From: Anaeramoeba flamelloides
Taxonomy: Eukaryota > Metamonada > Anaeramoebidae
Direction: 5' to 3'
DNA: 64,000 bases
Assembly (NCBI GenBank): GCA_027625915.1
Contig: JANTQA010000036.1
Span: 3,219,501-3,283,500 of the forward strand
Part shown: piece by piece, positions 6,071 to 50,741 of the stretch
Position numbering within the stretch: the first letter of the stretch is position 1
How the letters are laid out: each line of letters begins with the position of its first letter
The notes under the pieces: generated by a model
Seen by the model: the letters and a program-made list of their open reading frames with translations, nothing else
Told to the model about the DNA's origin: nothing
Databases searched by the model: none
Made by a program: the position numbers and the translations under genes

Positions 6071-6111
<41 letters not shown>

Positions 6112-15395: not shown

Positions 15396-15401
15396 TTGAA
15401 A

Positions 15402-22660: not shown

Positions 22661-24730
22661 TTAAAGTTTATTTTTTATTTCATTCAATTGGATGAGAATA
22701 TTTGAATTTTCATTTAGTTGGTAATATTCGATTGAATCTTCTAATTCTTCAATAACTAATAGGGGGTCATGGTCAGCTGTTAATTCGATTTTCTCAGTAT
22801 AAAAATATTTGATTAGAATTTCGATACTTTCAATTGATTTGCCAGAATAATCTTTGACTGATTGAGATTCTTCTGTTATATTTTCAAACATTTCTCTGAA
22901 TAATCCACTTCTTGTTAACAAAATAATTTTGTGAACCGGAATTTCTTCATATTCATCCTCATCCTCATCATCGTTTTTTATTAAAAGTGTGAAATCTTTG
23001 GAATCTTCATCATTAAATAAATCATGTAGATCTTTTTGAAAAGTATTTTTTGGTGGGAAGGATAAATTTAATGAATTGAAAATTTGTTTCAGCAAATCAA
23101 CATTTGTTATTTCATCAAAATAAACCCATTTTAAAAACAATAGTATTTCTTGTTTTGAAAATGATTCGTTATTTAATAAATTTTCAATTGTTGATATTTG
23201 TAAATTGGTTCTTGATTCAACAATGATTTTGTGAATTGGAACTTGTATATTTTCATTCAGTGATAATTTTGAATCACAAAATATTTTGGATTCAAATAAT
23301 TTTTGAAAATCTTGAATAAGGCAATTATTGTAAGAAGGATAAAGATAAATACATTCTGTTCCACATGTGATCTTGAGTTTTATTGAAGGATTGTTTTGAA
23401 AAATTTCGGGTAAATTGAATTTATGAGGTATTTGTATATTAATATTTCCATATTGATCAGTTGGATGATTACCTGTATAAAATCCCCAACCAAATAATTC
23501 GTTTTCATTCGTTAAGGCTAAAGACATTCTTGAGCCTCCAAAATATTCAACAACTTTTTTGTTTTTGAGTTCTTCAATTTCAGTAAATGTTGATTTATCT
23601 TGAGTAAATCCATTAAAGCCAGCACTACCACACCCATAAGTTTTCCCTTCTTTGGTGATTAATATAGAATAACCATCATTGGTTTGAAGATCCAAGATAT
23701 CTTCAGCTTTCCATTTGGGAACTTTAACAGGTGATTTTTGATTGGAGCTATTTCCAGTTCCTAAGCACCCATATTGGTTTTCCCCACAAGTATACAATTC
23801 ATTGTTTTTGGTTGTAAAAAAAAAACTATAACCTTGAACTCCTCCAAATACTCTGGTTACATTTTCAAAGATCAAAACTGGAAGGTTTTTTGCTTGGTTT
23901 GAAGTTCCATCACCAAGCCTTCCTTTTTGGGTTTTTGTTTGGGTTTATTGTTTTGGGTTTATTGTTTGGGTTTTTTTCAAATTTTTTTCAAATTTTAAAA
24001 AAACAAAAAAAAAAAAAAGAAAAAAAAGAAGAAAATAAGAAAAAGAAGAGGAAAAAAAAGAAAGAAAAAGAAGAGATAAGGAAGAGAATGAGAAAAAAAA
24101 AATTTTTTTAAAAACTTCGGTTCTTTTTTCTGAGTTATTTTTGATTTGAAATCTTTTTCAAAAGATCAAATCAGAAAAAATTCAAAAAGAAATGAAAAAT
24201 TAAATCAAAAAGAAATTTATTTTACCTGCGTTATAACCATTTCCAAAAAGTTTACCATCTTTACAAACAAAATAATTGGACCATCCTACCATTGCAAATG
24301 TTTCAACTTTTCGATTGTTTTCTTTTTTGTTAAAAAAAGGAACTGGTCTTATTTTTTCATAGTTACTTGATTCAGGATCAGACAAAGGAACTTCACAATA
24401 ACAAAACTCTTGAGCAAGTGAAAAAATATTTCCTGATTTGGTTAAAATCAAATAAGTTGAATAACCTGATTGGATATCTTTGATCTCTTCATTTTCAATA
24501 GTGAAAGATTTTGGTTGGTTGTTGGTTCGGTGAAATTCTAAATTATTGATTCCTTTCCAAATCAAACAGTTATGATTGTAACCAGAAACGATTTTTCTTA
24601 CTTTGTTTGCATTTTTGATCTTTGAAAGAGGAGTCCATCGTGGAGATTTGTTTTCATTTTGGTTGATCAATTGTCTTATTGAATTATTTCTATTTCCTGA
24701 ATAAAAAATTTGTGTTTTGGTTTGGGTCAT
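22661..24730 (-). CDS. RCC1–BTB–BTB protein, copy C (intact)
   Basis: Exon 1 is 24226–24730, the intron 23923–24225, exon 2 22661–23922; joined, they give 588 residues. The split codon restores the RCC1 motif GNGYNAG-RLGDG, which supports the splice sites. Residues 1 to about 365 form RCC1-type repeats: SGYNHNCLIW, VGWSNYFVC, GENQYGCLGTG, YGCGSAGFNGF and LFGWGFY are blade motifs. A degenerate BTB unit follows at about 370–455 (PIHKIIVESRTN...LKWVYFDE), then a clearer one at about 465–560 (VHKIILLTRSGLFREMF, LIKYFYTEK). BTB domains of this kind dimerise and often bind cullin-3, with the propeller as the binding part; that role is inference. A 45-bp block just upstream of the ATG is shared by all copies. 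Confidence 0.87.
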
Positions 24731-24776
24731 TTTTAAATGATTAATTTGGGTTTTGTTTTCAAAAAGAAAAAACTTT
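24731..24776 (-). promoter_or_regulatory. Conserved block just upstream of the ATG (5' UTR or core promoter)
   Basis: All seven copies have, directly before the start codon, a block reading roughly CTTTTTGAAACCAAAACCCA then AATTAATCATTTRAAA. It is retained even in copy D, which lost its ATG. It lies close to where the C/F and D/G flanks switch from near-identity to gene-type divergence. It could be a transcription or translation start context; no function is shown. Confidence 0.5.
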
Positions 24777-24819
24777 GAAATTGTCGAAAAAAAAATGAAA
24801 AAATGAAATTTTCATAAGA

Positions 24820-25960
24820 AAACTAATCTCTATTAATTTTTTTTTTTGAACAATAACTAAATAAGGAATCCTTCTCTAGAAATATGTTTAAAATTGAAAA
24901 TAGACATGTGTTTTTAATGTTAGAACTTTTAGTTCTTGTTTTTTTTAAAATTTTACAATTCATTCAAAAAAGTGTATTTTAAAATTTTTTTAATAAAAAA
25001 AAAATCTTTTAAACGAAAGAGAATTTTTTGATTAATTTTGGATTTAATTATTTTCTCAAAAATAATATTTATTCTCATTTTCAAAAAACGAAAAAAATGA
25101 TTTAAAACGAGTGAATATTTTCTCCTTCACTTCTGTTCATCCAACTTGACTCTATAAAGAACTCAATTTGTTTTTTCAATAATTACTTTTACAAAAAATA
25201 GTTAATATTTTTTTCTTTTATTATTTTTTGACTCTGACAAAAACTTTTAGGATCGTATCATTTGGGAACACTTAAAAAAACTTCAAATTCAACAAAAACA
25301 AAAGAGTGTAAACTCTAAAAATTAGATTCATGAAAAAAAAGAATGGTACAAGAAAAGAAAGAAAATATTTTATTATAAGTAAAGCATATATTGTATATTT
25401 TTTTCGAATAAAACTTTTTTTTCATGCAAATCCAAAAAAAACCTTTTCAGGTTTATTTTTCAAACTATTTTTTGTACTTCTTCGACAAACATAACAAGGT
25501 TTTGCTTTCTTGCTCATATTTTTTTTTATTTTTTGTATTTGTGCGAAAAGTTGAAAAAAAGCAACTTTCAAAAAAGTGAAAAAAAGGGAAAAAATTTTTT
25601 ATTTCTATAAAAACAATAACTAAATTTAATGAATGTCATTTATCAAGATTTCATTACTATACTAAGAAGTTTTTTCACTTTGATTTGAAATCTAAGTAAT
25701 TGGCAAAAAAAAATTCTAAATCTCTATTAAATTAACCTTAAAAAAATTTAATATAGACTAGTCCCTGAAGACAACTAATCTCTATTAATTTTTTTGTTTG
25801 ACCAATTTCTAAATAAGGATCCCTTCTCTAGAAATATGTTTAATATTGTAAATAAACAGGGGTTACCAAATCTAAGTAATTGATAAAAAATTTTTCAATC
25901 TCTATTAAATTTAGGTAAAAAAATTTAATAGAGATTATTCTCTTAAGGGATTATTGTCAA
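24820..25960. repeat. Dispersed segment upstream of copy C, inverted at 1–1205
   Basis: It starts near CTCTATTAATTTTTTT and runs to a palindromic AATCTCTATTAAATTTAGG block near 25900. A shortened relative of its final part occurs at about 58420–58585. No gene other than the CYVC mini-ORF is visible. Confidence 0.65.
25422..25517 (-). CDS. CYVC mini-ORF, second copy (doubtful gene)
   Basis: It starts MSKKAKPCYVCRRSTKNS like 539–637. A run of 8 T, against 7 at 51416–51523, shifts the last residues to GFA. The coding part is unchanged between copies, but so is the surrounding non-coding sequence, so conservation says little about function. Confidence 0.2.
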   Translation of the reverse strand: MSKKAKPCYVCRRSTKNSLKNKPEKVFFGFA

Positions 25961-26055
25961 CCAGGTAGAAGCCTACGATCAAAGTATGTTGTTATTGGAC
26001 CTATACACATTAATGCTACTATTTCAAAATCTCTAAAAAATCGATTAGTCAAGTA

Positions 26056-26253
26056 CAGTCAGTTCCACTTTTAAGACACAAACTTTCAACGAAATTTAAG
26101 GCACAAAAAAATACCAAATTAAGGCACAAAATTTGTAATTTTTTTTTAATTACAATTTATTTTACTAGAATCTGAATTTTGTGCTTTAATTTGAGATTTT
26201 TTTTGTACTTTAAATTTGGTTGAAAGTTTGTGCCTTAAAAGTGGAACTGACTG
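26056..26253. mobile_element. TA-flanked MITE, family 1
   Basis: A 198-bp palindromic element between TA dinucleotides, with ends CAGTCAGTTCCACTTTTAA and the reverse, and TTAAGGCACA-type motifs in both arms. It sits in what looks like a truncated TTAA-family element (left end about 25935). The homologous element at 61941 runs uninterrupted past the equivalent GTCAAGTA position near 62044, an empty site. Confidence 0.85.
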
Positions 26254-26399
26254 TATTATCAATACAATTATCAATATCTTAAAAATCTGTTTTGGTTGAA
26301 TGGATACTTCTCATCGATGTAGAAATTGAAGTTATAACACACCTTCAAAAAAATTGAATTTATAGAGTGTTTGATAATATCTTTGTTAATTCAAGATAA

Positions 26400-26580
26400 T
26401 GTACAAAAATCACGGTTATTTTAATCAAATCAAGATATTGTAGAAAATTGAGATAATCAATAATATCACAACAATATTATATATCGTGATATTCTCTTTA
26501 ATTGGGATAATTGTTTAAAATCGTGATATTTTTATAAATATCGTGATAATGTCTAAATCGCGAAATAATGTTTGATTAGC
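26400..26580. repeat. Cluster of ATCGTGATAT-type motifs
   Basis: Within 180 bp there are several irregularly spaced copies or half-copies of the near-palindrome ATATCGTGATAT, such as TATATCGTGATATTC, AAATCGTGATATT and AAATATCGTGATAAT. The duplicate lies at about 52390–52560 and a diverged inverted relative at 47050–47240. It may be a decayed satellite or a protein-binding cluster. Confidence 0.45.
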
Positions 26581-26989
26581 TGAAGGGCCACTTTAACAAT
26601 ATTTTTATAAAAAGTAAAATTTTCATTGATCACAAAACGAATGCTTGAAAAAAAAAGTTATTTTGTTAAAAAACAACAAAAAAAGATACCTAATTCAATT
26701 GAGGATCAGATCAAAACTGTTTTCATTGTTTTTTATTTTGATTTGGTTGACCTATCGATCATACCAATAGAACAGTCAAACTAATAACAAAGATCAAAAT
26801 AATAGTTTACCAATCTATAGTTGTGCTCTAAAGTATGTTGAATAAAAATTACTCCAAGAATATCGTGCCTTTCACATGTTCTTTAAAGAATATGTTGTTG
26901 GATTAAAATATTTTATTTATTGTAGGAAAGTTTAGTGGGATTAGGATAACTTTTCAAAAGCTATCTCAACAACCTTGTAAGATTATCAC

Positions 26990-28368
26990 ATATTATTTGA
27001 TGTTTAGTACATCCATTTCATAAACTAAAATATAAATTTCTTGAAATTTATAAGATTTCAACAAGTTTTTTCTATGATTTATATATCAAAATAATATATA
27101 TTCCTTAATTATCAGTTTGAATTAGGAAAAATTTAAAGAAGTACATTTTGACCATTTTGAAAATTTAAATTGTGTAAAAATTTCTGAAAAAATATTTTTT
27201 GAGGGTCATCAGATATTGAAACTTTGAAACCCAAAAATCAATCACAGCTCTATTTATGAAAAGAAATACCAAACAAATTAATTCAGAGTTCAATCTTTAA
27301 TTTTTCGATTTTTTTGAACATCTTTTTTTTTTTCGTGTGAATTTCAATTTTTGAACTTTATTAAATTTGGTGTTGAATCAAGAAATGTGTTTATAGATAT
27401 TAATCCATATAAAAAAAAATAGACCCGAAAAGGTTTTTATTTATTACAAATATTTTCTTTTAGAAGACCAAACACAAAAAGATTACCTTTCAAATAAATT
27501 TGTTAAAATCAAAAATGGATGAAATAATAAAAATTGATAAAAGCCTATTTTTGAAGATTTGTTTTCTTGATCTTCTTAGTTTGTTTGAATATAAACTATT
27601 TTTTTCCTTGAATTTCTCTTCTCATTCATGTTTATTATTATTTTACAATACAATTTTAACAAATTTGCTAACAAAATATTTTTTCCAAATAATTTTATCA
27701 AATAAAACCAAAATAAAGAATATTATTTCAAAAATTAAAAGTAATTACAGTAAATGGGGTATGAGTTCTTGGAATCAAAAAACACAGTAATAAAAGACAC
27801 ACCCCAAAATAAAAGAGATATTTAGAAAAGAATTCAATCACATTCAGAATTAATTTAGTTCTCATTTTAATGGTAAATAAATAATTATAAAATCAAAAGA
27901 ATTTGTCAAATAAACCTTTATTTCAGAAGAAAAATTTAATATATATATCCAATGTTCTGAACCAAATCAAGAATTGGATGAATTAAATGAAAATAGGATT
28001 TTTAGTTTCTTTTTGGAATAAAATTTTGGTAATAACAATAAATTGAACGAATAAAAATTGTACAAACAAGAGTATTTCTATGAAGAATTAAAAATAAAAT
28101 CAAATTAAGAATTTTTAATTGTATCAAATCTAAATAGATAAGATCAAGAAATAAATAATTTTTATTTTATTATTTCTTGATCAATCTTTTTTTTTTTTTT
28201 TTTTGGTTTCCATTTTTTTAGTTGGGGTGAAAATTTACGATACTATGATATATTCAACCCTCGTATTTATTAAAATATCAATGTATTTGATTAAAGTGAT
28301 GATTTGAAGAATTCAGTTTCACATAAATTGTGGCATTCAAAATTTGAAAAATGTACTTTCTTCGTTAA
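26990..28368 (+). repeat. Dispersed flank-derived repeat
   Basis: About 26990–27130 resembles the 3' flanks of the RCC1–BTB genes (compare 48360–48540, and 7600–7800 inverted). About 27130–28368 matches 60330–61936 plus 62691–62790 in the same orientation, and 45150–46350 and 41480–42850 in reverse. Frames at 27500–27790 and 53500–53694 are not kept open in the diverged copy at 60660–60960, so I do not call a gene. Confidence 0.65.
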
Positions 28369-28552
28369 GGGATTAGCGTCGCCATAGATTTCACTATAAT
28401 CAAAGTATGTTGTAATTAGGTGCAAATGATATTAGTGCACCATGGTAAAAAATAGTTTCTGTGTCTTTAAAATATATATATATATAAATATTATTGCACA
28501 ATAAATTCTTACATTTTTTACTAAATGATCACTATAAGAAAAGTGTCATTTT

Positions 28553-29574
28553 TTTTTTTTTTTTTTTTTTATTGGTTGAAGGGAGTGATCAAAGATCCTC
28601 TTACACAGCCGTTAGGTTTTTTTTAATTTAAGAAATAAACTGAAATTTTATTTAATTTTCAGTTTATTTCAAAAATTAAAAAAAACCTAGGCACTTTCCG
28701 TTAGGTTTTCCAGAATTTAAGAATTGAGTAAAAGCTTAGATTTTATTCAATTCTTTTGAATTCTGGAAAACCTCCGTTAGCTTTTCTTGAGTTTTCTGTT
28801 TATTTGGAAAATCGAAAGAGTTTCGTTAGGTTTTTTTTACTTTTCGAAATAAACCGAAAATTTCAAAAAATTTTCTGTTTATTTCAAAAAGTAAAAAAAA
28901 CCTAGAACACTTCACAAATAAAACAGAAAACCCCAAGAAAAGCGCCGTTAGGTTTTTTTTAATTTTTGAAATAAACCGAAAATTTCAGAAATTTTCGGTT
29001 TATTTCAAAAAAATTAAAAAAAACCTAGGCACTCTACGGCACTCTACGGCACTCACTCTGATTACTAATGGTAAATTAGTAATTTAGATGATAAAGAAAT
29101 AAAAATATTTTGGAATCGAGTAGGTTCCAATTTTTTATTGGTTGAAAAAACAAAAAGAAAAATCAAAAGAAAAAAAAAAAAAAAAAAAAGCAAGTTAGAA
29201 AAAAAAAAAAAAATTTTTTTGACATTTGATAAAAAATCAAAAAAAAACCAACTATCCATTTTTATCAAGAACACTCATTAAAACAGACAAGATCCTTTTT
29301 ATTTAAAATTTTGTCGTTTAATTATTTCTAAGAAATCATGAATGCTTCGTTGAGTGGTAGTTATTTAGTAGCTTACATTTTTTTTCTTTTTGATCCAATC
29401 TTTTTTGATCGTTCCAGTTTTTGTTTTTGTCTTTTCTTTTTATTTTCAAGTTACCCATACCGACTAGTTTCTGTCCGTCGAGTATTAGCAAGTAACAACT
29501 TGATTTTTCATGTTAGTAACTCTTCTTCCCAATTAAAAGGAAATTCAACAAGGGAAAAAATAGAAAAAAAATCA
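28553..29574 (-). mobile_element. Poly-A retroposon-like insert inside the TTAA element
   Basis: It is bounded by the 14-bp direct repeat AAAAGTGTCATTTT (28539–28552 and 29575–29588). It begins on the plus strand with about 20 T, that is, a poly-A tail on the minus strand. The TTAA element at 61941–62686 lacks it, providing the empty site. Inside are a hairpin array (about 28610–29050) and a segment (about 29400–29540) that also occurs in the A and B 3' flanks near 7880–7980. No protein is recognised. It may be a composite SINE or a retroposed transcript. Confidence 0.7.
28610..29050. repeat. Nested hairpin array
   Basis: It holds modules like those at 1597–2020. One hairpin (arms GCTTTTCTTGAGTTTTCTG and its complement) has another complete hairpin (arms GTTAGGTTTTTTTTACTTTT and complement) sitting in its loop. 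Modules are preceded by CCGTTAG and followed by CTAGGCAC or similar. The nesting suggests each hairpin is a separate small insertion. Confidence 0.75.
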
Positions 29575-30278
29575 AAAAGTGTCATTTTGAAAAAATTTTT
29601 TAAAATTCATTTACCAAATCTAAAAATAGAAACCGAAAATACTGCATTTCGGTATTTAATAATTTAGATTTAGAACTTCCAAAAGTAACTATTTTTATAA
29701 TTTTTTAATTTCGCGGATTAACTTAATAATCATCAACATCAAAAACCCAAATACTGATTATTTTTGTTTGCTTTTTATAAAGATAATTGGATCTTCAATA
29801 ATATATTTCCATGATTTGAGAAATAATTTGTTAAAAGAACTGATTCGTTAATTATTGAATTTTATCGTTAATTATTGAATTTTTTAGTAACGTATCTACA
29901 TTTTGCCACAAAGTAAAGAATGATATTTTGTGATTTTTTAGTCTGAATATTGATAATCTAGCCTTTAAATTTATGGCAAAATGCAGATTTTATTCTGAAA
30001 TTGTTGGGTTTTTTACTAATACATAGATCATTTTTAATTGATGAGATCAACAAAATTTACTACTTGACTAAACGATTTTTTTAGAGACGTTTGAACCATG
30101 TAGCACTAATGTGGTTACGTCCCAACAACAAAATACTTTTGTTCTTAGATGCTTCTCCTTGGTAGACGCTAATCCCTTAATGTGTCAAAAATTCTTTTAA
30201 AATAATATTAGTTTTTTTTTATTTATTGGTTTTCTTTTATCAAAATTGAATGAAAGATTTGAATAGTCATTATAAAAA

Positions 30279-32326
30279 TTAAAGTTTATTTGTTATTTGA
30301 TTCAATTGGCTGAGAATATTCGAATTTTCATTTAGTTGGTAATATTCGATTGAATCTTCTAATTCTTCAATAATTAATAAGATGTCATGGTCAGCTGTTA
30401 ATTCGATTTTCTCAGTATAAAAATATTTGATTAGAATTTCGATACTTTCAATTGATTTTCCAGAATAGTCTTTGACTGATTGAGATTCTTCTGTTATATT
30501 TTCAAACATTTCTCTGAATAATCCACTTCTTGTTAACAAAATAATTTTGTGAACCGGAATTTCTTCATATTCATCCTCATCCTCATCATCATTTTTTATT
30601 AAAAGTGTGAAATCTTTGGAATCTTCATCATTAAATAAATCATGTAGATCTTTTTGAAAAGTATTTTTTGGTGGGAAGGATAAATTTAATGAATTGAAAA
30701 TTTGTTTCAGCAAATCAACATTTGTTATTTCATCAAAATAAACCCATTTTAAAAACAATAGTATTTCTTGTTTTGAAAATGATTCTTTATTTAACAAATC
30801 TTCAATTGTTGATATTTGTAAATTGGTTCTTGATTCAACAATGATTTTGTGAATTGGAACTTGTATATTTTCATTCAGTGATAATTTTGAATCACAAAAT
30901 ATTTTGGATTCAAATAATTTTTGAAAATCTTGAATAAGGCAACTATTGGAAGAAGGATAAAGATAAATACATTCTGTTCCACATGTGATCTTGAGTTTTA
31001 TTGAAGGATTGTTTTGAAAAATTTCGGGTAAATTGAATTTATGAGGTGTTTGTATCCTAATATTTCCATATTGGTCAGTTGGGCGATTATCTGTAAAAAA
31101 TCCCCAACCAAATAATTCGTTTTCATTCGTTAAGGCTAAAGATATTCTTGAGCCTCCAGAATATTCAACAACTTTTTTGTTTTTGAGTTCTTCAATTTCA
31201 GTAAATGTTGATTTCTTTTTAGTAAATCCATTATAGCCAGTATTGCCACACCCATAAGTTTTCCCTTCTTTGGTGATTAATATAGAATAACCATCATTGG
31301 TTTGAAGATCCAAGATATCTTCAGCTTTCCAGTTGTAAACTTTAACAGGTGATTTTTGAATCTTTCTATTGCCAATTCCTAAGCATCTGTATGAGTTTGC
31401 TCCAGCAGTATACAATTCATTGTTTTTGGTTGTAAAAAAAAAACTATTTCCTTGAACTCCTCCAAATACTCTGGTTACATTTTCAAAAATTAAAACTGGA
31501 AGGTTTTTTGATTGGTTTGAAGTTCCATCTCCAAGTATTCCTTTTTGGGTTTTTGTTTGGAAATTTTTTTTATTGGGTTTATTGGTTTGGTTTGTTTAGG
31601 TTTTTTTTCAAAAACAAGAAAAAAAAGAAAAGAAAGAAAAAAAAGAAGAAAAAGAAAAAAGAAAAGAAAAAAAAAAGAAAAACAAGAAAAAAAGAAGAGA
31701 AAAAAAAAGTCTGTTTTTTTTCTGAATTATTTTTGATTTGAAATCTTTTTCAAAAGATCAAATCAGAAAAAATTCAAAAATAAAATGAAAAAATAAAATC
31801 AGAAAAAGAAATTTATTTTACCCTTGTTGAAGCCATTTCCAAAAAGTTTACCATCTTTACAAACAAAATAATTGGACCATCCTACCATTGCAAATGTATC
31901 AACTTTTCGATTGTTTTCTTTTTTGTTAAAAAAAGGAACTGGTCTTATTTTATCATAGGTACTTGATTGAGGATCAGACAAAGGAATTTCACAACAAGTA
32001 CCATTTTGAGCAAGTGAAAAAACCTTTCCTGATTTGGAAAAGATCAAATAAGTTGAATAACCTGATTGGATATCTTTGATCTCTTCTTTTTCAATTGTAA
32101 AAGATTTTGGTTCGGAGTTTGTTTGGTAAAATTCTAAAATATTGATTCCTTTCCAAATCAAACAGTTAGGATTGTTACCAGAAACGATTTTTCTCACTTT
32201 GTTTGCATTTTTGATTTTTGAAAGAGGAGTCTATTGTGGACATTTATTTTCATTTTGGTTGAACAATTGTTTTATTGAATTATTTAAACTTCCTGAATAA
32301 AAAATTTGTGTTCTGGTTTGGGTAAT
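30279..32326 (-). pseudogene. RCC1–BTB–BTB gene copy D (start lost, one nonsense codon)
   Basis: Exon 1 is 31822–32326, the intron 31541–31821 and exon 2 30279–31540. The codon aligned with the start ATG is ATT (32324–32326), and the Trp codon of the PRWTPL segment is TAG (near 32232). The rest of exon 1 and all of exon 2 are open, with 10 T in the FFF run, both BTB units and the NQITNKL end. It carries distinctive loop residues (NGTCCEI, NTGYNGFTKKK, GNRKIQK). A shorter product from a downstream start is conceivable but would lack the first blades. Its duplicate, copy G, is intact, so D probably broke after the 10-kb duplication or the defects were removed from G by conversion. Confidence 0.75.
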
Positions 32327-32394
32327 TTTTAAATGATTAATTTGGGGTTTTGGTTTCAAAGAAAAAACTTTGAAATTGTTGGAAAAAAATGAAA

Positions 32395-34400
32395 AAATGA
32401 AATTGCCTTTGTGAAAAAAATTACCTCGGACAGGGAAAAGAAAAGTTCAACACCAGTTTTTCATTCGGAGAACATTAATACAACATTACTGAAAAAGAAA
32501 AGCAAAATCAATAAAAAGAAGAAACCAATTAACTTCAAATAATAATCCATTTTATTAATTTCAATCAAACCAACAAACACTATTTAAATCTACTTTCATA
32601 TCGAAATTCTTGTTGTGGTTTTGGAGATCGCAAAAAAAGTAAATTTTTAACAACAAATTTTTAATAATTGATCAATCAAAGAAAAACTCTTACCAAATTT
32701 AAAGTTAGTATTAAAAAAACTGTTATTGTGTTGAACCCTTCGTGTTGTCTTTATTTATTTTTTTATTCTTTTTTCCATTGATCTTATTTTGAATTTTCAA
32801 GTTCTATTAATGTTCCCAATTAAAAACTGAGTTGAACTTTTTTTCTAGAACGGTAACTTTTTTTTTAATATTTTTTGTTTGAGTACGATTTTAAAAAATT
32901 TAAATTCAAAGTAATCTGTTCTTTAACAAAGTAGCTGTTGTTATGTTGTAAAATTCTTTCATATATTTCTGAAGTGAGATTAAAAAAACGGAAAAAATGG
33001 AATACATTATTGAAATTTAATCTTTCCTTTCGTATCAAAATGTGAAATTGAAATTTGGAGGAAAAATCAAAAAAAAAGTTTGAAAATATTACTTCAGAAC
33101 AATTTATAGAACTCTGACACATTGTTAATAATTTTCTATTTTTTTCTTTTTTCTTGTTGTGGTCAATAAGTTGATATTGTTCAAAAAATTAGAAAATTGG
33201 AAAAACTTAGAAATTGATTTTTTGGTATTTTCTTGTTTGGTTAGGATTTGATAAAAGCTTGTCAAAATATTTGTTATTGAATAGAATTAACTCAATTCTT
33301 ATTTACCTAATTAAAATCATTTTATATTAACCAAGGGTTTTTTTTTTTTATTCATAAAAAAGCTCTAGACTGGTTCTTGCATACTTATTTTGATTAGATC
33401 TTCGAATATAAAAGGCCTCAAAACTATTCACACAATATCCCAACCCAATTTTACTTGGAACTAGCAATTGGGTTCTGAGTGTGAAAATATAACAAAAACA
33501 AAAATTAACACACAAAATGGAATTAAATTTTTTGGGTAATAATGGATATTACATTCAAAATACCAAATGAACAAAAAATATCCTTGAAAGAGTGATTGTG
33601 AACTTCATTCCCAAAAAAATGCAAGAAAATGAACAAAAATCATAAAAAAAAACAAAGAGAAAATAACAATTTCATCGTGATCATTATTATGATTTCGTGT
33701 GACAATGGGAACGTTCAAATAACTTACTTATAAAAAAATATATGTCAATATGATCTTGGAAATTTAATTTTATTATTGTTTTAGAGAGGGTTTGTAATGA
33801 TCGTTACTTTTTTAAGACTTGATAATCAAGATTATTTTTTCTTTTTCATTCACGTGTTTCAAAATAACGGTGTTAGAGATTAGGTCTCTAAAACGTTTAT
33901 CTCAATTTTTCATTAAAAAATATATCTTATAATGATTTTTTGATCAAATTTGGACAATGTTTCTTATGAATATGAATTCATAATTTATATGAGATTGAAT
34001 AAAAGATTTTGAAGACATCTTGGTGGTTTTTCAACCTGGTTCTTAATTTATGTTATTTTATAAAAAAATATAATTTTTAATGATTTTATTGAAGAGAAGT
34101 AATCTTGCTATTTTTTCAATATAGAATATAAAAATACAAGAATTTTGTAACTTAAAAGAGTAAGGAAAACTGGTGTGTAGATAATATTTTCATTCGATAA
34201 AAAAATCAAAGTTTACAATTCATTAATCCCTAGATATAATTACATCACATGTATTACATTTTTTCATTTTAAAAATCACAGCAGACTTATAAAATTGCTT
34301 TTTTTTAAGATATATATATATATATATATATATATTGTTCCATTCATTATTTCATTTTTTGTTTTTTGAAAAAGTCATTGAATACTTTTGAAATCATACT
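32395..34400 (-). repeat. 5' flank of copy D, inverted match to the B 5' flank
   Basis: It matches 13700–15395 in reverse complement with moderate divergence. The frame 32865–33122 is closed in the B copy, so I do not call it a gene. A TA microsatellite lies at its right end. Confidence 0.65.
34310..34335. repeat. (TA)n microsatellite
   Basis: An uninterrupted run of about 13 TA units. Similar short runs occur at 39389–39402, 39427–39452, 61282–61300 and 61882–61905. Confidence 0.9.
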
Positions 34401-35400: not shown

Positions 35401-35814
35401 AATTTTCCAATGTCGTAAATCCTTGAGCGCGGCGATCTTTATATATTTATGAGATTAAATACGTCTTAAATTAATTTTTACAAAGACTTCTAAAATAACT
35501 TTAAATATCATTTTTAAAGTTGAATTTATTAGTAAAATGCTTCCTATTTCATTTAAATTCAATTCCAAATTCGAAAATCAGAAAATTTCCAAACTTTGCT
35601 TAATTACGAAAGGATTTCCCAAAATCTTTCCACATTGTCTACAATATTATCCTAAACTTTTGAGTGTTCTAATCTCTTTCTTATCAGTAGTTATGAGGAA
35701 TTATATAGTTAAATTTTATCAATTAAAATGTTTGAGTTTTTAAAAAAATATATAGCATTATTATTTTTCTTTAAAACAAAATTGAATAAAACATTTGAAT
35801 AGTCATTATAAAAA

Positions 35815-37884
35815 TTAAAGTTTATTTTTTATTTCATTCAATTGGCTGAGAATATTTGAGTTTTCATTTAGTTGGTAATATTCGATTGAATCTTCTAATT
35901 CTTCAATAACTAATAGGGGGTCATGGTCAGCTGTTAATTCGATTTTCTCAGTATAAAAATATTTGATTAGAATTTCGATACTTTCAATTGATTTTCCAGA
36001 ATAGTCTTTGACTGATTGAGATTCTTCTGTTATATTTTCAAACATTTCTCTGAATAATCCACTTCTTGTTAACAAAATAATTTTGTGAACCGGAATTTCT
36101 TCATATTCATCCTCATCCTCATCATCATTTTTTATTAAAAGTGTGAAATCTTTGGAATCTTCATCATTAAATAAATCATGTAGATCTTTTTGAAAAGTAT
36201 TTTTTGGTGGGAAGGATAAATTTAATGAATTGAAAATTTGTTTCAGCAAATCAACATTTGTTATTTCATCAAAATAAACCCATTTTAAAAACAATAGTAT
36301 TTCTTGTTTTGAAAATGATTCTTTATTTAATAAATCTTCAATTTTTGATATTTGTAAATTGGTTCTTGATTCAACAATGATTTTGTGAATTGGAAATTGT
36401 GTATTTTCATTCAGTGATAATTTTGAATCACAAAATATTTTGGATTCAAATAATTTTTGAAAATCTTGAATAAGGCAACTATTGGAAGAAGGATAAAGAT
36501 AAATACATTCTGTTCCACATGTGATCTTGAGTTTTATTGAAGGATTGTTTTGATAAATTTTGGGTAAATTGAATTTATGAGGTTTTTGTATATTAATATT
36601 TCCATATTGGTCGGTTGGGTGATTATCTGAATCAAATCCCCAACCAAATAATTCGTTTTTATTTGTTAAGGCTAAAGATATTCTTGTGCCTCCAAAATAT
36701 TCAACAACTTTTTTGTTTTTGAGTTCTTCAATTTCAGTAAATGTTGATTTATCTTGAGTAAATCCATTAAAGCCAGCAAGACCACACCCATAAGTTTTCC
36801 CTTCTTTGGTGATTAATGTAGAATAATCATCATTGGTTTGAATATCCAAGATATCTTCAGCTTTCCAGTTGGGAACTTTAACAGGTGATTTTTGATTGGA
36901 GAGATTTCCAATTCCCAAGCATCCATATGAGTTTGTCCCACAAGCATACAATTCATTGTTTTTGGTTGTAAAAAAAAAACAATAACCTTGAACTCCTCCA
37001 AAGACTCTGGTTACATTTTCAAAGATCAAAATTGGAATTTTTTTTGCTTGGTTTGAAGTTCCATCACCAAGCCTTCCTTTTGGGTTTTTGTTTGGAAATT
37101 TTTTTTGGTTTGGGTTTATTGGTTTGGGTTTTATTGGTTTGGTTGTTTAGGTTTTTTTCAAATTTTCAAAAAAGAAAAATTCAAAGAAAAAAACAAAAAA
37201 AAAAAAACAAAAAAAAGAAGTAAAAAAAGGAAAGAAAAAAAAAAAAGAAAAGAAGAAAAAAAAGTCTGTTCTTTTTTCTGAATTAATTTTGATTTGAAAT
37301 CTTTTTCAAAAGATCAAATCAGAAAAAATTCAAAAAGAAATGAAAAAAAAAAAAAGAAAGAAATTTATTTTACCCTTGTTATAACCATTCCCAAAAAGTT
37401 TACCATTTTTACAAACAAAATAATTGGACCACCCTACCATTGCAAATGTTTCAACTTTTCGATTGTTTTCTTTTTTGTTAAAAAAAGGAACTGGTCTTAT
37501 TTTTTCAAAGGTACTTGATTGAGGATCAGACAAAGGAGCTTCACAATAACAACAATTTTGAGCAAGTGAAAAAACCTTTCCTGATTTGGTTAAAATCAAA
37601 TAAGTCTCATAACCTGATTGAATATCTTTGATCTCTTCATTTTCAATTGTAAAAAATTTTATTTTGTAGTTTGTTTGGTAAAATTCTAAAATATTGGTTC
37701 CTTTCCAAATCAAACAGTTCTGATTGTTACCAGAAACGATTTTTCTCACTTTGTTTGCATTTTTGATTTTTGAAAGAGGAGTCCATCGTGGACATTTGTT
37801 TTCATTTTGGTTTGTCAAATGGTTTACTAAAACATTTTTATTTCTTCTTCCTGAATAAAAAATTTGTGTGTTGGTTTGGTTCAT
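35815..37884 (-). CDS. RCC1–BTB–BTB protein, copy E (intact)
   Basis: Exon 1 is 37374–37884, the intron 37077–37373 and exon 2 35815–37076, giving 590 residues. It has the same plan as copy C: RCC1 blades to about residue 367, a degenerate BTB unit, then a canonical one. Exon 1 has two extra residues near position 15 (RRNKNVLVNHL against NRNNSIRQL). Loop residues differ at the usual sites: GNNQNC, QTNYKIKFF, SGYET, GNGYNKG, YACGTNSYG and YGCGLAGFNG. It is the only intact gene outside the 10-kb duplication and stands alone between inverted repeats. The first part of the BTB region (KIEDLLNKESF, QFPIHK) has small private changes. Confidence 0.87.
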
Positions 37885-37889
37885 TTTTA

Positions 37890-40465
37890 AATGATTAATT
37901 TGGGTTTTGGTTGCAAAAGAAAAAACTTTGAAATTGATGGAAAAATATCGAAAAAATGAAATTATGATAGGGAAAAAATTATATCTAACATGAAAATAAT
38001 CCCAGACAAGATTTTTAATTGTTAAAGAGACAGAAAATGTTTTTTAAATTGCTTCAGAATTTGCTAAATATTATTTAAAACCCTTTTGAGAAATAACCAA
38101 ATTTTTTATCAGATTAGTAATGAACCGACCTAAAGTTCACTAAAGTAAGGTGTCTAGAATAATCAATTAATTGTTGGACAACGAAAGCAAGATCAACTTT
38201 TTTGTGGAAAAAAATCTGAGTTTAAGAACTGTAGTGAAAATTAAGTGTACAAAAAAATTTAAAGCATGTTTCAAAATAAAAAGCGTGTGTTTTTGTTATA
38301 GTTGACCAATACCTTAACCAATCAAATAAAGCCAACAATAAACACTTGACAAATATGGTATTGGTTTCTTAAAGTTCTATTATTTAAAAAGAAATTCTAA
38401 AAAAGAAAGATCAAATAGGAAAATTTATCTCAAAAAATAGAGGAATAATCAAAAAATAAATAAAAAAATTCAAAAAAAAAAGAATAAATATAGAAAATTT
38501 TCAACTATTTGCACGAATGATTCAAATTTTACTTAAAATATCCAGACCTTTACTTTCAAAATTGATTTGAACTTAGTATACTATATGATAGTTTATTAGA
38601 TGTTACCTTGGAACATGAAGATTCCCAAGAATGGAGATCCAATTTAGTAATTTCTTAAAAATGATCCTGCCTTTTGATTTTTAGGTGTTTAGAAATTAAG
38701 GATCCATCAAAAACCTGAAATTTTTGGAAATTGTTGATCATAGATAAGGTTTGAATTGAAGATTTTCAAATTCTCATATTTTCTCTATGAGAAATTTTTG
38801 TTCTTTTATAAAATTTCACAGTTTGTAATAGGCTATCACACGAATATGAAATCCTGTGATAGAAATGAAAGTGTGAGATAGAAAATGAATTTTCTGTTTA
38901 TCAGAGATTTCACGGTAGGGTTGGAAACGCTGTATCCCTTAGAACCCCAAATATACTAAATACCTTTCAAACATAATTTTTAATTTAAAATGTTATCAAT
39001 GAGTTTTAAGATATATAATTGATAAAAAATTACCTTAGAAAGAAAATTTTATAATTAAAAATTGTATAGTTACTTAAAATAAAAAAATAACATGAAAAAA
39101 ATTTTTCATCAAAGGTAATTTTTTTTTTGGTTATTGTGCTTTTATTATTTTCCATCCAAATTTTGTCAAAAAAAAATATTTTTTTTTTGAAAAGTTTGTC
39201 TAGACATCAAAAACCTCTTATTTTTAATGATTAAAACACATCATAATCTACTGGAAATTTTTTTGGGGGTGCTTTTGTAACCCGAAATTGCATAAAATAG
39301 TTTATTAAATAATTTATTCATTACAAGAGTTATTTTGAAATCACATAGAAAATTTGTTTTATCTGCTGATTAACCATCAATAACAATATATATATATATA
39401 TATGATTCTAAATAATTTAAAAATAAATATATATATATATATATATATATATTAATGTTGAAAAAACAATAATATCTATTTTCATTAAAATTTGGAATTT
39501 TTTTCAACAATAATTTTTTTCAAAGTTAAATGATTTGGCCAATATTCCGAGTTAGATTAATAATTGATTTTTTTTGACTTTTATTATTTTTTAATTTTTG
39601 ACTATTTAAAACCTAGATATAAAATAAATAATATTATTGAATAAGATACTTTATATCAGAACTTATTTCCCAAGATCTGAATTAATTTAGAAAGGAAAAA
39701 TTCCTATTTCACAAAGATATTATTCCACTTTTTACTAATAACAAAATTCACAAAAAAATCCTCCTTTCGAAGATTATTCTATTGTCTTTGAATAATATTT
39801 AAGGGTTATTATTTATTTTTTTTTAAATTTAGGGTTAATAATTTTATCTATTAAAAAGGTTTTTATGTGTAAAAGTCCAATTTAATAAATGTAATTATTT
39901 TAGAATTTTATTTTTTTTTTATTTGTCAAGTATTCCCTATTGCTTAAATTAAAGTTTTAGAAAATTATTTAAATTTTAAAATTTTAATTTTGTCCAAAAG
40001 AAATTGATTTCATTTTTCTCTTGATTGGATATTTATTGAAATTTTTTCTAAAAAATAAAATTAAAATTTCTCATTAATATATTTATTTATTTTTTTTTAT
40101 CATAATATTAACATTATTATTTTGTTTATTATTATTAAGAAACCAACGTGTTGAGTTTTGATATACTATACCTGTAATAAAATTTCTGATTTAAAAAATT
40201 AAAATAACAATAAAAATCTTTATAGAAAATTTTTGTTAATAAATAATTATTATTTTTTTTCAATTTCAAATAAAAAAAACAATAACACAACTACTTTATC
40301 TTTGAACAATTTTGACTTTTTAATATAATTAAAATCAGGATTAAAGACAAATAACAAAATAAATATATTAGTACATCAATATCATTTTAAATCTTTTTTT
40401 AGAAACTTGATGAAATTAAGGTAAATCCGGGGTAGTACGGGATATATATATAACATGTTATATCA
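37890..40465. other. Gene-free AT-rich spacer upstream of copy E
   Basis: Apart from the conserved block at the ATG and the TA microsatellites near 39389–39452, I see nothing recognisable here and could not match it to the other gene flanks by eye. Confidence 0.55.
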
Positions 40466-40653: not shown

Positions 40654-40779
40654 ATTTTATATTCAATTACTAAATAACCTTTGATTGAGAGATTAACCTC
40701 TTTGGATTTACAAATTTCTTTTGGATAAAGATATATAATCCAATATCAGATAGAATTATTAAAAAAATGAAGAGAGGAA

Positions 40780-43660: not shown

Positions 43661-43929
43661 AACATTTTATTTGGGAAAATTTAAGTAAATAAATTTTGAT
43701 AAATACAGATAAGAAAGAGATTGTCGATCTAAAAATGTTATCACTGCACTGTAGTCAATGTGGAATGATTTAGGGAAATCCTTTTGTAATTAGATAAAGT
43801 TTGAAAATTTTCTGATCTTCTTATTTTCAATTCTAACAAAGTAAAATAATTTGGATTTTACCAATAAATTCAACTCTAGAAATGTAATTAAAAGTTATTT
43901 TAGAAGAGTTTGAAAATAAATTTTTTTTT

Positions 43930-44890: not shown

Positions 44891-45149
44891 AACAATAAAG
44901 ACCGATATTCCACATTATCGCCATAAAATAATTATCACATTAAAAAAAAATCTCTTGACTTTTACAAATATCTGAGACTTTTACAACATTTTTCCCTTTC
45001 AAAATGTTTGAAAGTTATTTGCAAGTGTTGTGAATTGTGCATTGGTGTTTGAAAGTTTTGAAAGACAGAAAACTTTTATCAACAGATTGAGATCGTTTGT
45101 AGTGGAAAAAAAAATTTTTATTCTTTTCATTTTTTGTTTAAGGGAGTAA

Positions 45150-47660
45150 GACTATTTTTCATATTTTGAGTTCCATCATTTATTCGAAACTGAATTATTC
45201 AAATCATTTCTTGAACCAAATATATTAATATTTTAATAAATACGAGAGTGGAATATATCCTAATATAATATATTTTCATACCAACTAAAAAATAGAATTC
45301 AAAAAAATGAAAAGATTGAGCAAGAAAAAATAAATACAAATCATTTATTTCTTGATCTTATCTGTTAACATTTGATACGATTACTTCTTCTTAATTTGAT
45401 TTTGTTTTTTTATTCTTCATCGAAATACTTTGATTTGTAAAATTTTTGTTCATATAATTACTTTTTATTTCTATAGAATTTCCAAAATGAATTTAAAAAT
45501 CATATCTTCATTTAATTAATCTAATTCTTGATACTGGTTCAGAAAATAGGATATTTATTAGAATTCCTCTTTAGAAACAAAGATTTATTCGACAAATTCG
45601 TTTGATTTAGTAATTATTTATTTTCCTTGAAAATGAGAATGTAAAATATTTATGAATTCTGATTGAATTTTTTTTCAATTATTTTGGGTTGAATCTTTTG
45701 TAAATGTTTTTTGATTACATAGAATTCAACCCCTTTACTTTAATTTTTGAAATAATATTCTTTATTTTGGTTTTGTTTGATAAAAAGATTTGAAAATTGA
45801 ATTTTGAAAGCAAATTTGTAAAAAAAAAATGTTTTGTATAATCATAATAAAAAGTTAGGGGGGGGATTCAAGGTTATAAAGTATTTGGTTTCATACTAAT
45901 TAAGAAGATAAAGAAAACAAATTTTCAAAAATAATTACTTTTTGTTTTTTTTTTTATTTATTCTTGATTTCAAAAAATTTATTTGGAAATTAGGCTCTTT
46001 CGTGTTTGGTCTTATAAACGATAAATATTTGTTTCAATGAAACACCTTTTCGGGTTTATTTTTTGGATTATTCACGGACTATTTTCATTTATACGTATAA
46101 ACATAATTTCTCGATCTAAAACCAATTTTAAAAAAACCTGTAAATTTAATCAAAAAAAATGTTCAAAAAATTGAAAAATAAAAGATTCAACTCTGAATTA
46201 CGTTGTGTTTGCTTTCTTTTCACAAATAGACTAGTGAATGATATTTTGGTTTCAAAGTTTTAATATCTGGTGGTGACACTCAAAAAATATTTTTCAGTAA
46301 AGTTGTTACACAATTAAAATATTTCAAAATGGTAAAATGTACTTATAACCTTAACAAAATTTTAAAATCTCAATCAAATTTTCTGAACATACTAACAATA
46401 ACCATAAATTTCAACAATATAATTGAATATAAAATAGATTTGTTTTTTTAAAATGGAGTCGTTACCTTCACAAGTTAAATAGCCAAAAAAAGAAGAAAGA
46501 GTAATTTTACTTCTTATTATTGATGGATCAACAAAAAGCTCTAAGCTCTAGTTATGTTTTCCGTCGAATACAAAGATACCGAGAAGAAGAGGAAGAATAA
46601 GTAGACAGTAATTGTACAAAAAATCTTAATAATAGATGATCATCTGGCCAAGGATGTCGGGAAAGCTTTTTGAAAAGTTATCCAACTACTTTCAGTTTCC
46701 GATGATATTTAAAATGTTTTAACCCATGAAACATCATCTCAAAGAGAATGATAAAGGATTTGTTGTTTTAGAAGCTCTTTTTTATTCATCACCATTTATA
46801 TCACCATGATTCACTGAGAAAATATTTAAGTATCTTGAGTTATCATTGTTGTTGATCTCAAAGGATCCATAGTGTTGTCAACGAAATCAAAAGAAAAGAT
46901 AATAAAACTTATTTGGTCTGATCCTTGATTGAATCAAGTATCTTCTTTGGTTGGTTTTTTCAAAGCATAACTTTTAATCACATAATCTATTTTTTGATCA
47001 AGAAAAAATATCTTTGTAAAAATATTGCTCAATTAGACCAATAACACAACAAATATTATATCTCAATTACTTTTTAATCGCCATATTTTGAAATTTATCT
47101 CGATTTTTTTTTAATTATCACAATTTTATCGAAAACCATGATTCATATTATTGCAATAATATAGAATATCATGATTTTCAAGAGTATTGCGATTTGATAG
47201 AAATTATTTCAATTTTTGTAAATTTATCGTGAATTTTGCAAGATATCAGTATAAACTCGAATAAAAATACAATGCTATTTATTTAATTTAGAACATACAA
47301 AATACCAGAATCAATACTTTTGGTTAATTTAGGATCCTTTGATAAGTAAACATGAATTTTTATTTGGGAAGTTGTTGTTTAATTGTTTTTATTTCATTTT
47401 TCTTTTCGTTCTTATTTTTTTTTTAACTCTTTTTTTTATTTTTTGTACTTTACTTTTTAGTTTTTATTTTATTTTCAAGTTATTCATACTGTTGTGTTTC
47501 AGTATCTCATAATATTAACAAGTAACCATTTGTGCTTTTTCATTTTTAATTCAATTTCCCATTAAAGAGAATAACTAGACCAAGGAAAAGATGGTTGAAA
47601 AAAAAGAATAGTTTATTTTTTAAAAGTTTTATTTTGGAAATAAACTATTTTTGAAAAGTA
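45150..47660 (-). repeat. Second block of inverted flank pieces without a gene
   Basis: About 45150–46350 matches 27130–28300 in reverse and carries an uninterrupted TTAA at 45233–45236, the equivalent of the insertion site used at 61937. About 46440–47240 matches 26400–27000 in reverse, and 47280–47660 matches the A/B 3' flank. The short stretch 47660–48350 has no match that I can see. Confidence 0.55.
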
Positions 47661-48658
47661 AGGGCACACGTCTCAATTCATCAATGCCATTGAATTTGAT
47701 TGTTAATAAGACAATTACTTATTAGTGAGTTTCATTTTAATTATTCATTTTTTCATTTTTTGTTTTTTTTTATTTTGAATAATGAACAGTTAAAGGATGA
47801 AAGAAACAAAATAAGAAGAAAACAATTTGGAAATAATCTGACAGTATAGAAATGGAAACAGTTTAAGTTTGATTTCAAATGAGCTAGATGTAGGAATTAA
47901 GAAAGACCATTATTGGATTGATGCATGGAACTAAGAAAAGAGAAGATAAATGGAAAAAAAAAAATCACAACAAAAGAACCAGATGAATTGTGACTTTACC
48001 TTTAAAATGAGACTTTGAAGAACCAAAGTTTGACCTGTAAAGAATTATCAATAACTTGTAAAGAAATTTTTCCCAATTCGACCTTGTTCAAAGGTTGTTA
48101 TTGATTTTATATTTTTTTTCTTTACAATTTACAAAACGAGATTTCTCATTTCAAATAAAAGGGTATACAAATTTTTAAAATATTGAATTTTAATTTTTAT
48201 TGTTTTGTTTTGATGATTTTGAAAGATTCAGTTGAGTGTTTTTTTATGTTTTAAATAGTTTTTTATATTTTAGAATGATACTACAATTAATTTGATTCAA
48301 TAATGAATAAATCTTGAAAATGTCTGTGCGCTTTTATTTGAAAAAGAGTTTATGTAAACTTTGATTTTAAAAAAAAGTTGAATCATATTTATAAATTGTT
48401 TATTTAATGTCCAGTACAACCATTTCATAAACTAAAATATAAAATACAGAGAAATATTTTATGATCTCAACAAGTATTTTTATTTGATTTTTATCTCAAA
48501 ATATTTATTTCTTTTAATTATCAGTTTGTATTATGAAAAAGATTAAATTGTCATAAATTCTTTTTAAAATATTAATTGTTTTTGTTTGTTTGCTTTTTAT
48601 CATGATTATTTTTCTTTTATCAAAATTGAATAAAATATTTAAATATTCATTATATAAA

Positions 48659-50741
48659 TTAAAGTTTATTTTTTATTTGATTCAATTGGATAAGAATATT
48701 TGAGTTTTCATTGAGTTGGTAATATTCGATTGAATCTTCTAATTCTTCAATGATTAATAAAGGGTCATGGTCAGCTGTTAATTCGATTTTCTCAGTATAA
48801 AAATATTTGATTAGAATTTCGATACTTTCAATTGATTTTCCAGAATAGTCTTTGACTGATTTAGATTCTTCTGTTATATTTTCAAACATTTCTCTGAATA
48901 ATCCACTTCTTGTTAACAAAATAATTTTGTGAACCGGGATTTCTTCATATTCATCCTCATCATCATCCTCGTCCTTATCCTCATCCTCATCTTCATCATT
49001 TTTTATTAAAAGTGTGAAATCTTTGGAATCTTCATCATTAAATAAATCATGTAGATCTTGTTGAATAGTTTTTTTTGGTGGGAAGGATAAATTTAATGAA
49101 TTGAAAATATGTTTGAGCAAATCAACATTTGTTATTTCATCAAAATAAACCCATTTTAAAAACAATAGTATTTCTTGTTTTGAAAATGATTCTTTATTTA
49201 ACAAATTTTCAATTGTTGATATTTGTAAATTGGTTCTTGATTCAACAATGATTTTGTGAATTGGAACTTGTATATTTTCATTCAGTGATAATTTTGAATC
49301 ACAAAATATTTTGGATTCAAATAATTTTTGAAAATCTTGAATAAGGCAACTATTGTAAGAAGGATAAAGATAAATACATTCTGTTCCACATGTGATCTTG
49401 AGTTTTATTGAAGGATTGTTTTGAAAAATTTCGGGTAAATTGAATTTATGAGGTATTTGTATATTAATATTTCCATATTGGTCAGTTGGATGATTATCTG
49501 TATAAAATCCCCAACCAAATAATTCGTTTTCATTTGTTAAGGCTAAAGACATTCTTGAGCCTCCAAAATATTCAACAACTTTTTTGTTTTTGAGTTCTTC
49601 AATTTCAGTAAATGTTGATTTATCTTGAGTAAATCCATTAAAGCCAGCACTACCACACCCATAAGTTTTCCCTTCTTTGGTGATTAATGTAGAATAACCA
49701 TCATTGGTTTGAAGATACAAGATATCTTCAGCTTTCCATTTGGGAACTTTAACAGGTGATTTTTGATTGGAGCTATTTCCAGTTCCTAAGCGTCTGTATG
49801 AGTTTGCTCCACAAGTATACAAATCATTGTTTTTGGTTGTAAAAAAAAAACTATAACCTTTAACTCCTCCAAAGACTCTGGTTACATTTTCAAAGATCAA
49901 AACTGGAAGGTTTTTTGCTTGGTTTGAAGTTCCATCTCCAAGTCTTCCTTTTGGGTTTTTGTTTGGAAATTATTTTTGGTTTGGGTTTTTTTGTTTGGTT
50001 TGGTGTTTAGGTTGTTTGTTTATTTTTTTCAAATTTTCAAAAAAGAAAAAAAAGAAGAAGAAAAGAAAAAGGAAAAATTAGAAAAGAAAAAAAAAAGAAA
50101 AAGAAAAAAAAAATTTTTTTAAAAACTTCGGTTCTTTTTTCTGAGTTATTTTTGATTTGAAATCTTTTTCAAAAGATCAAATCATAAAAAATTCAAAAAG
50201 AAATGAAAAATTAAATGAAAAAGAAATTTATTTTACCCAAGTTATAACCATTTCCAAAAAGTTTACCATCTTTACAAACAAAATAATTGGACCACCCTAC
50301 CATTGCAAATGTTTCAACTTTTCGATTGTTTTCTTTTTTGTTAAAAAAAGGAACTGGTCTTATTTTTTCATAGTTACTTGATTGAGGATCAGACAAAGGA
50401 ACTTCACAATAACAAAAATCTTGAGCAAGTGAAAAAACCTTTCCTGATTTGGTTAAGATCAAATAAGTTTGATTACCTGATTGGATATCTTTGATCTCTT
50501 CATTTTCAATGGTGAAAAATTTTGGTTCGGAGTTGGCTCGGTGAAATTCTAAATTATTGATTCCTTTCCAAATCAAACAGTTATGATTGTAACCAGAAAC
50601 GATTTTTCTCACTTTGTTTGCATTTTTGATCTTTGAAAGAGGAGTCCATCGTGGAGATTTGTTTTCATTTTGGTTGATCAATTGTCTTATTGAATTATTT
50701 CTATTTCCTGAATAAAAAATTTGTGTTTTGGTTTGGTTCAT
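48659..50741 (-). CDS. RCC1–BTB–BTB protein, copy F (intact)
   Basis: Exon 1 is 50237–50741, the intron 49948–50236 and exon 2 48659–49947, giving 597 residues, the longest intact member. The extra length is an Asp/Glu/Lys expansion in the loop of the second BTB unit (NDEDEDEDKDEDDDEDEYEE). It is the positional duplicate of copy C, but differs in exon 1 at about 20 bases, of which about 16 change residues, clustered in RCC1 loops: RANSEPKF against RTNNQPKS, GNQTY against GYSTY, and GYNLG against GYNAG. In exon 2 the blade reads GANSYRRLG against GENQYGCLG in C. The flanking spacer is almost identical to that of C. Confidence 0.87.

Follow-up and report, generated by a model that had tools for sequence, protein, structure and literature searches.

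Twin blocks in an RCC1-BTB gene array

We analyzed a 64,000-nucleotide stretch of the Anaeramoeba flamelloides genome (hereafter the window; C37:3219501-3283500, ~77% A+T) in which two blocks of ~10 kb each carry a pair of RCC1-BTB genes separated by a spacer. Self-comparison of the window aligned 22528-32404 with 48527-58406 in the same orientation, at a distance of 26 kb, making genes C and F positional duplicates within a 10-kb block, as a preliminary description of this DNA had proposed, and genes D and G the second pair of twins. The flanks of the two blocks do not align with each other, and the outer limits of the first block, 22528 and 32404, are the points at which homology common to all gene copies stops. 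Both blocks lie on a single 13-Mb contig. The block comparison was made from the assembled sequence of a single genome, with misassembly assessed only indirectly, and genome searches covered 254 Mb in 76 contigs. The intron in these genes identifies the source as a eukaryote, and A+T content, ~14 loci (counted from 20 matches) for Ribosomal_L10 and published work on Anaeramoeba (PMC11550330) are consistent with a genome of the Anaeramoeba type.

The twin genes belong to an array of 15 full-length RCC1-BTB copies across 137 kb; the remainder of the 194 kb examined holds short low-complexity matches only and no further gene copy. Reading frames are intact in nine of the 15 copies (g2, g4, g6, C, E, F, G, g8 and g9) and broken in six (g1, g3, g5, A, B and D), and some frameshifts in the broken copies could be homopolymer sequencing errors. 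The defects of D, which is probably a pseudogene, are substitutions: ATT stands at the start codon, and exon 1 contains an in-frame TAG. Exon 2 of F exceeds that of C by 27 nt, an acidic stretch. The introns of C and of the six remaining copies within the window have conserved ends and a poly-pyrimidine middle that changes fast and varies in length. The features discussed below are collected in Table 1.

Table 1. Genes, spacers and divergence segments of the two blocks, with other array copies. Positions are those of the window unless marked C37; segments and patches are in C/D coordinates.
Feature	Position	Strand	Details
Gene C	22661..24730	-	exon 1 24226-24730, intron 23923-24225, exon 2 22661-23922; intact, 588 codons, RCC1-BTB
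Gene F, twin of C	48659..50741	-	exon 1 50237-50741, exon 2 48659-49947; intact
Gene D	30279..32326	-	exon 1 31822-32326, exon 2 30279-31540; broken
Gene G, twin of D	56278..58327	-	exon 1 57823-58327, exon 2 56278-57536; intact
Spacer S, between C and D	24812..30178	none	41/5332 substitutions relative to S'
Spacer S', between F and G	50823..56177	none	limits approximate
Low-divergence segment	24527..31082		61/6518 (0.94%); spacer, ~200 bp of 5' C/F exon 1 and 3' part of D/G exon 2
High-divergence patch, C/F	23767..24526	-	67/730 (9.2%), intron included; coding parts rank 19 and 42 of 105 pairs
Low-divergence patch in C/F exon 2	23091..23766	-	8/676 (1.2%); next closest copy 28 differences from C, 25 from F
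High-divergence patch, BTB end and 3' flank of C/F	22528..23090	-	5.5%
High-divergence patch, D/G	31083..32404	-	142/1316 (10.8%), intron included
Gene A	5324..7602	+	broken, frameshifts
Gene B	15321..17630	+	broken, frameshift in exon 1
Gene E	35753..37963	-	intact
g4/g5	C37 ~3199155-3209700		outside window
g2/g3	C37 ~3174200-3187500		outside window

Divergence of the twin genes and their spacer

Global alignment of the two blocks gave low divergence across the spacer and raised divergence in both gene pairs. The spacer differs by 0.77%, or one substitution per 130 bp, and by 35 indel events, 30 of which involve 1-2 nt of one base type. Between C and F, by comparison, 20 of 505 bases differ in exon 1 and 40 of 1262 in exon 2; the intron differs at 36/273 positions, the 3' flank at 12/131, and the 81 bp directly upstream of the ATG at four. 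The contrast between gene and spacer is not unique to this pair, as D and G differ at 31/505 positions in exon 1, 61/1260 in exon 2 and 62/277 in the intron. Alignment of the poly-pyrimidine middle of both introns is poor, and the intron counts are untrustworthy there. The preliminary description, which held that C and F diverge far more than their spacer and that the introns and ~130 bp of 3' flank differ as well, is borne out by these counts, and the unevenness it saw by eye persists in a proper alignment as an alternation between ~1% and ~10%. Its picture of a near-identical spacer with homopolymer-type indels also stands, although the substitutions are denser than the one per few hundred bases it gave.

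To place the boundaries we used a two-state segmentation with rates preset by us at 0.6% and 8%. The jump in divergence, which had been put near the ATG (24730), falls ~200 bp inside exon 1 (24527), and C and F then alternate between near-identical and strongly diverged patches along the gene. At its other end the low-divergence segment reaches ~800 bp into exon 2 of D and G. This share of the segment does not settle the matter, since conservation of the region is array-wide: D has eight differences from E and nine from G in the final 350 bp of the gene, and three from g6 and five from G in the adjoining 454 bp.

Such unevenness bears on whether one of the blocks is spurious, being a false duplicate or a haplotype joined wrongly. 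The prevalence of one-base-type indels in the spacer resembles long-read error and would fit an artefact of this kind. A haplotype copy should diverge evenly, however, and haplotype duplication is disfavored because the divergence observed is uneven, with an alternation tied to the gene family. Given further that the flanks of the blocks differ, and that two other array pairs also show sharp breakpoints (see below), we regard an assembly or haplotype artefact as very improbable.

Silent sites were compared with the spacer as well. Silent differences number 25 of 347 sites between C and F (Fisher P 2e-14, odds ratio 10.0 against the spacer) and 23.5 of 350 between D and G (P 1e-12, odds ratio 9.1), about nine times the spacer rate in both pairs. 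The preliminary description had offered two mechanisms, rapid diversifying selection or conversion from other paralogs. In the first, C and F would have been identical at duplication and would have separated by selected point mutations alone. The exon 1 differences, 15 of which are nonsynonymous and five synonymous by the Nei-Gojobori method (a 16/4 split had been counted by eye), lend this some appeal, as do D/G exon 1, in which the proportion of nonsynonymous differences per site (pN, 0.064) exceeds that of synonymous ones (pS, 0.045), and the propeller loops treated below, whose 40 positions hold 8 of the 21 C/F amino-acid differences in residues 1-365. Per site, however, pN between C and F is below pS in exon 1 (0.037 against 0.051), in the RCC1 part of exon 2 (0.022 against 0.069) and in the BTB part (0.018 against 0.091); D, moreover, is a broken gene. 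Since the silent sites have diverged too, selection on amino acids alone cannot explain the contrast between C/F and spacer. Diversifying selection as the sole cause was therefore rejected on silent divergence, and we give it barely any credence. The nine intact copies give ratios of nonsynonymous to synonymous divergence (dN/dS) of 0.59 for exon 1 and, within exon 2, 0.74 for the RCC1 part and 0.37 for what remains.

Shared alleles and probable exchange among array members

We asked where the alleles that separate the twins occur elsewhere. Among the 13 other array copies, both alleles are present for 42 of the 60 C/F coding differences and for 62 of the 92 D/G differences, against an expectation of ~8% for a fresh mutation matching an existing allele (10% for C/F and 9% for D/G at silent sites). 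Pre-existing alleles of this kind are a further point against selected point mutations as the origin of the C/F differences. C/F differences with a private allele amount to 16 of 1764 bases (0.91%), near the spacer level; for D/G they amount to 25 of 1761 (1.4%), 19 of them private to D. Copies outside the array contribute little: the nearest exon 1 matches are 90% (C33), 88% (C32) and 87% (C48:15417053) identical, with a 120-bp piece at 91% (C51), and adding the C33 and C32 copies, with the C48 copy and the C51 piece left out, explains two more of the 60 C/F differences, bringing those without a private allele to 44, and five more of the 92 D/G differences.

A gene-targeted hypermutation, for example one linked to transcription, could also raise divergence in genes only, and high divergence does track the genes in the divergence plot. 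New mutations would be mostly private, yet private alleles between C and F stay near the spacer level, and low-divergence patches occur inside the genes; we consider this possibility close to negligible.

The relationship between the twins changes along the gene. Ranked by closeness among the 105 pairs of copies, C and F stand successively at 2, 1, 19, 42, 1, 68 and 12, and D and G at 1, 11, 25, 97, 34, 26 and 1. At the BTB end (22661-23090, 427 bp), C and F differ at 19 positions, whereas A, E, g4 and g5 are each 5-6 differences from C. A copying-model painting rendered all 15 copies as patchworks of differing best donors, and in a test of the pairwise homoplasy index (PHI) type the incompatibility of neighboring sites was lower than in all shuffles (0/999 as low). 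Breakpoints are sharpest in two pairs outside the window. The copies g4 and g5 are nearly identical from the middle of exon 2 to ~1 kb into the 3' flank (61000-62950 in the pieced region), where 13 windows of 150 bp together contain six substitutions; upstream, their 5' halves diverge by 3-21% per window. The pair g2/g3 is similar, nearly identical in the BTB half and 3' flank and diverged in the RCC1 half, the change falling sharply within exon 2; the picture for g8/g9 and g5/g6 is more mixed. Conversion had been proposed as confined to the gene, which the extension of these near-identical tracts into the 3' flank contradicts.

The observations, then, are an excess of silent divergence, shared alleles, patches along which the twins are by turns sisters and not, and two further pairs with sharp breakpoints. 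Duplication of the block, followed by patchy interlocus conversion of its genes from array paralogs, is the best explanation of these observations and, in our judgment, a probable one. A recent duplication of one segment within the tandem array would have made the twins C/F and D/G. Pieces of the genes would afterwards have been overwritten from other array members, by interlocus gene conversion or an equivalent unequal exchange, importing old paralog differences, silent and non-silent alike. Twins would accordingly drift toward the pool where donors exist and stay alike where there are none, and the spacer would have stayed near-identical because its only homologous donor is its twin. We infer both the order of events, duplication first and overwriting second, and the molecular pathway. 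Of the two mechanisms originally proposed, then, conversion from paralogs is well supported by the shared alleles and patches, and the silent sites argue against diversifying selection as the cause of the contrast. The accompanying suggestion, that a system keeps these genes refreshed, fairly describes tandem-array recombination, and nothing seen points to dedicated machinery.

The principal alternative reverses the roles of gene and spacer: F and G would be old, independent members of the array, one long tract (24527-31082) would have copied the spacer with the flanking genes serving as homology arms, and the gene differences would be plain old paralog divergence. The low-divergence segment does run unbroken for 6.5 kb with each end inside a gene, and the body of D/G lacks a sister signal (ranks 11 to 97). 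C and F, however, share a second sister patch 0.8 kb past the end of the tract (23091-23766, rank 1), and D/G rank first, narrowly, in the 5' flank beyond it, at 4.2% against 5.3% for the next pairs. Transfer of the spacer therefore needs extra events, and we hold it to be possible but unlikely.

Several results weigh against duplication followed by conversion. Transfer of the spacer accounts for D/G about equally well, if less well for C/F, and D/G keep rank 1 only at the two ends of the gene, the 5' end narrowly. At the BTB end F differs from every other copy at 16 or more of 427 positions, and no donor is seen for it there. A GENECONV-like test on 312 coding sites found conversion tracts in six of the 105 pairs (global P<0.05), with neither C/F nor D/G among them, and on 58 silent-codon sites, where its power is low, in none. 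The association between sites decays almost to background over 25-50 bp, a distance below the usual length of conversion tracts, and part of the allele sharing may therefore be recurrent change at the same codons. The spacer substitutions, finally, are mildly clumped (index of dispersion 2.1).

A search of the genome for a third copy of the spacer found none among the best 40 of 19696 candidates, which were matches to a dispersed ~770-bp repeat and shorter pieces only. This repeat lies at the C/F side of each spacer (25000-25770 and ~51010-51780) and, among those best 40 candidates, in at least 38 more places at 87-93% identity. Both spacers also contain a dispersed element of ~200 bp (26054-26255 and 52053-52254), found elsewhere in the window at 2982-3187, 60013-60217 and 63308-63509 and in at least 40 places in the genome at 93% identity or more (best 40 of 1940 candidates). 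The element closely matches its own reverse complement, at 80-87% on the opposite strand, and looks like a foldback repeat or one of the miniature inverted-repeat transposable element (MITE) type.

Propeller loops and a candidate binding face

We compared the gene products with known domains and structures. Pfam identifies RCC1 and RCC1-like domains, followed by a BTB domain (PF00651), in every one of the 23 aligned exon 2 proteins. Among solved structures, the propeller half of exon 2 is closest in sequence and fold to UVR8, HERC1/2 and RCC1; exon 1 alone has no solved-structure match. An AlphaFold model of exon 2 (mean predicted local distance difference test score, pLDDT, 87; predicted template modeling score, pTM, 0.58) shows half a propeller and then two BTB-like alpha/beta units. 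The model aligns with 4u2m, a Miz1/BCL6 POZ pair in a 233-residue chain (E 1e-7, root-mean-square deviation 5.9), and Pfam detects only the second of the two units. The model suggests two successive BTB-like folds in the exon 2 product.

Amino-acid variation was then examined at the loops of the propeller. In the HMMER alignment to UVR8, in which the UVR8 chain numbers are shifted by one, residues 251-253 and 299-301 fall on the W-R-H of the GWRHT repeats (W285/R286 and W337/R338), and residues 216 and 268 on W198/W250 and W302. The tryptophans of these UVR8 sets are placed at the UVR8 dimer interface in two reports (PMC4501546, PMC7455749); C lacks them at the aligned exon 2 positions. Our exon 2 loop sets follow this alignment, with residues 198-200 added by extending it two residues past its end; for exon 1 and the last blade we assigned loop positions by eye. 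All sets were drawn up with the variable codons already known.

Across the nine intact copies, pN/pS is 1.25 in the first exon 2 set (9 codons) and 2.79 in the second (12 codons), as point estimates, against 0.46 in the remainder of the RCC1 domain. Random codon sets reached the observed pN in 195 of 20000 draws for the first set and 0 of 20000 for the second, and none of 195 circular shifts reached it for the joint loop set. The loop signal is therefore strong in the second set and modest in the first. With all 15 copies included the ratios are 1.53 and 2.69 for the exon 2 sets, and 1.41 and 1.42 for the loops of all blades. Among the D/G amino-acid differences in residues 1-365, 19 of 51 fall within the 40 loop positions. 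Counting the loops of all blades in the intact copies lowers the point estimates to 1.14 (21 codons) and 1.71 (19 codons), a point against the reading of a selected face, and the loop of one blade (residues 150-152) is invariant.

Across the array, amino-acid change clusters at propeller loops, as would be expected from selection on a binding face, and the variable loops look like such a face. The BTB half is conserved, with change concentrated on one face of the propeller. Judging by their combination of a BTB domain with a propeller, these proteins probably serve a cullin 3 ligase as substrate receptors, their face varying by copy, and the array would then amount to a repertoire of such receptors. 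The position of the variation, at equivalents of the UVR8 interface, makes a protist substrate-receptor family with a variable face a specific and testable guess.

Expanded substrate-receptor families, such as F-box proteins and nematode MATH-BTB proteins, evolve under positive selection with fast birth and death, and have a variable substrate-binding part and a conserved ligase-binding part. Unlike in those families, the binding part here would be an RCC1-type propeller, and the variation is visibly shuffled between copies. The array proteins resemble RCC1-BTB and IBTK-type proteins in having RCC1 repeats followed by BTB; IBTK also carries ankyrin repeats. They resemble UVR8 and HERC2 in their propeller half, which these match best, and in variable loops that align with UVR8 interface positions, but, unlike UVR8, they have a face that differs from copy to copy, coupled to a BTB domain. 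The closest parallel for the process is the RPP8 family of nucleotide-binding leucine-rich repeat (NLR) genes in Arabidopsis, for which interlocus (intergenic) gene conversion among paralogs has been described that enlarges and reshuffles variation at each locus (PMC6771003). In both systems paralogs would exchange sequence and the most variable part would be the recognition region; the present case differs in concerning a protist array of 15 RCC1-BTB copies and in being inferred from a single genome.

Among the papers listed by literature searches on these genes in Anaeramoeba and on RCC1 gene conversion, none concerned conversion in RCC1-BTB arrays, which does not establish absence. What we describe is thus a known process, interlocus conversion, in a gene family for which we found no report, with an unusually clean internal clock. 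The block pair would act as a natural clock in which spacer divergence gives the age of the duplication and the genes record how much old paralog variation has come in since. It also illustrates how twin genes in tandem arrays can seem fast-evolving or old merely through having many donors.

A further reading, tentative and in our view doubtful, is that the array generates diversity for intracellular recognition, with broken and intact copies together forming a donor library. Short-tract conversion would assemble new binding faces onto a conserved half that couples to the ubiquitin ligase, and the six broken copies could serve as donors. Such a generator, if real, would recognize changing targets, for example viral, bacterial or symbiont proteins.

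Related genes occur well beyond the array. A genome-wide protein search returned at least 106 matches, several of them fragments of one gene (98 of 1326 candidates scored). A second RCC1-BTB group, on contig C70 of the same assembly (10970001-10989000), has three copies that are 83-85% alike over the gene; this stretch includes no fresh duplicate, and so allows no twin comparison for generality.

Within the window, no Rfam family scored above threshold and ARAGORN found no tRNA. A short open frame at 3518-3889 resembles, by eye, a piece of reverse transcriptase of the long interspersed nuclear element (LINE) type, with no Pfam match at E 0.001. Another self-complementary stretch, of ~570 bp, lies at 2404-2971 and is 81% identical to its own reverse complement.

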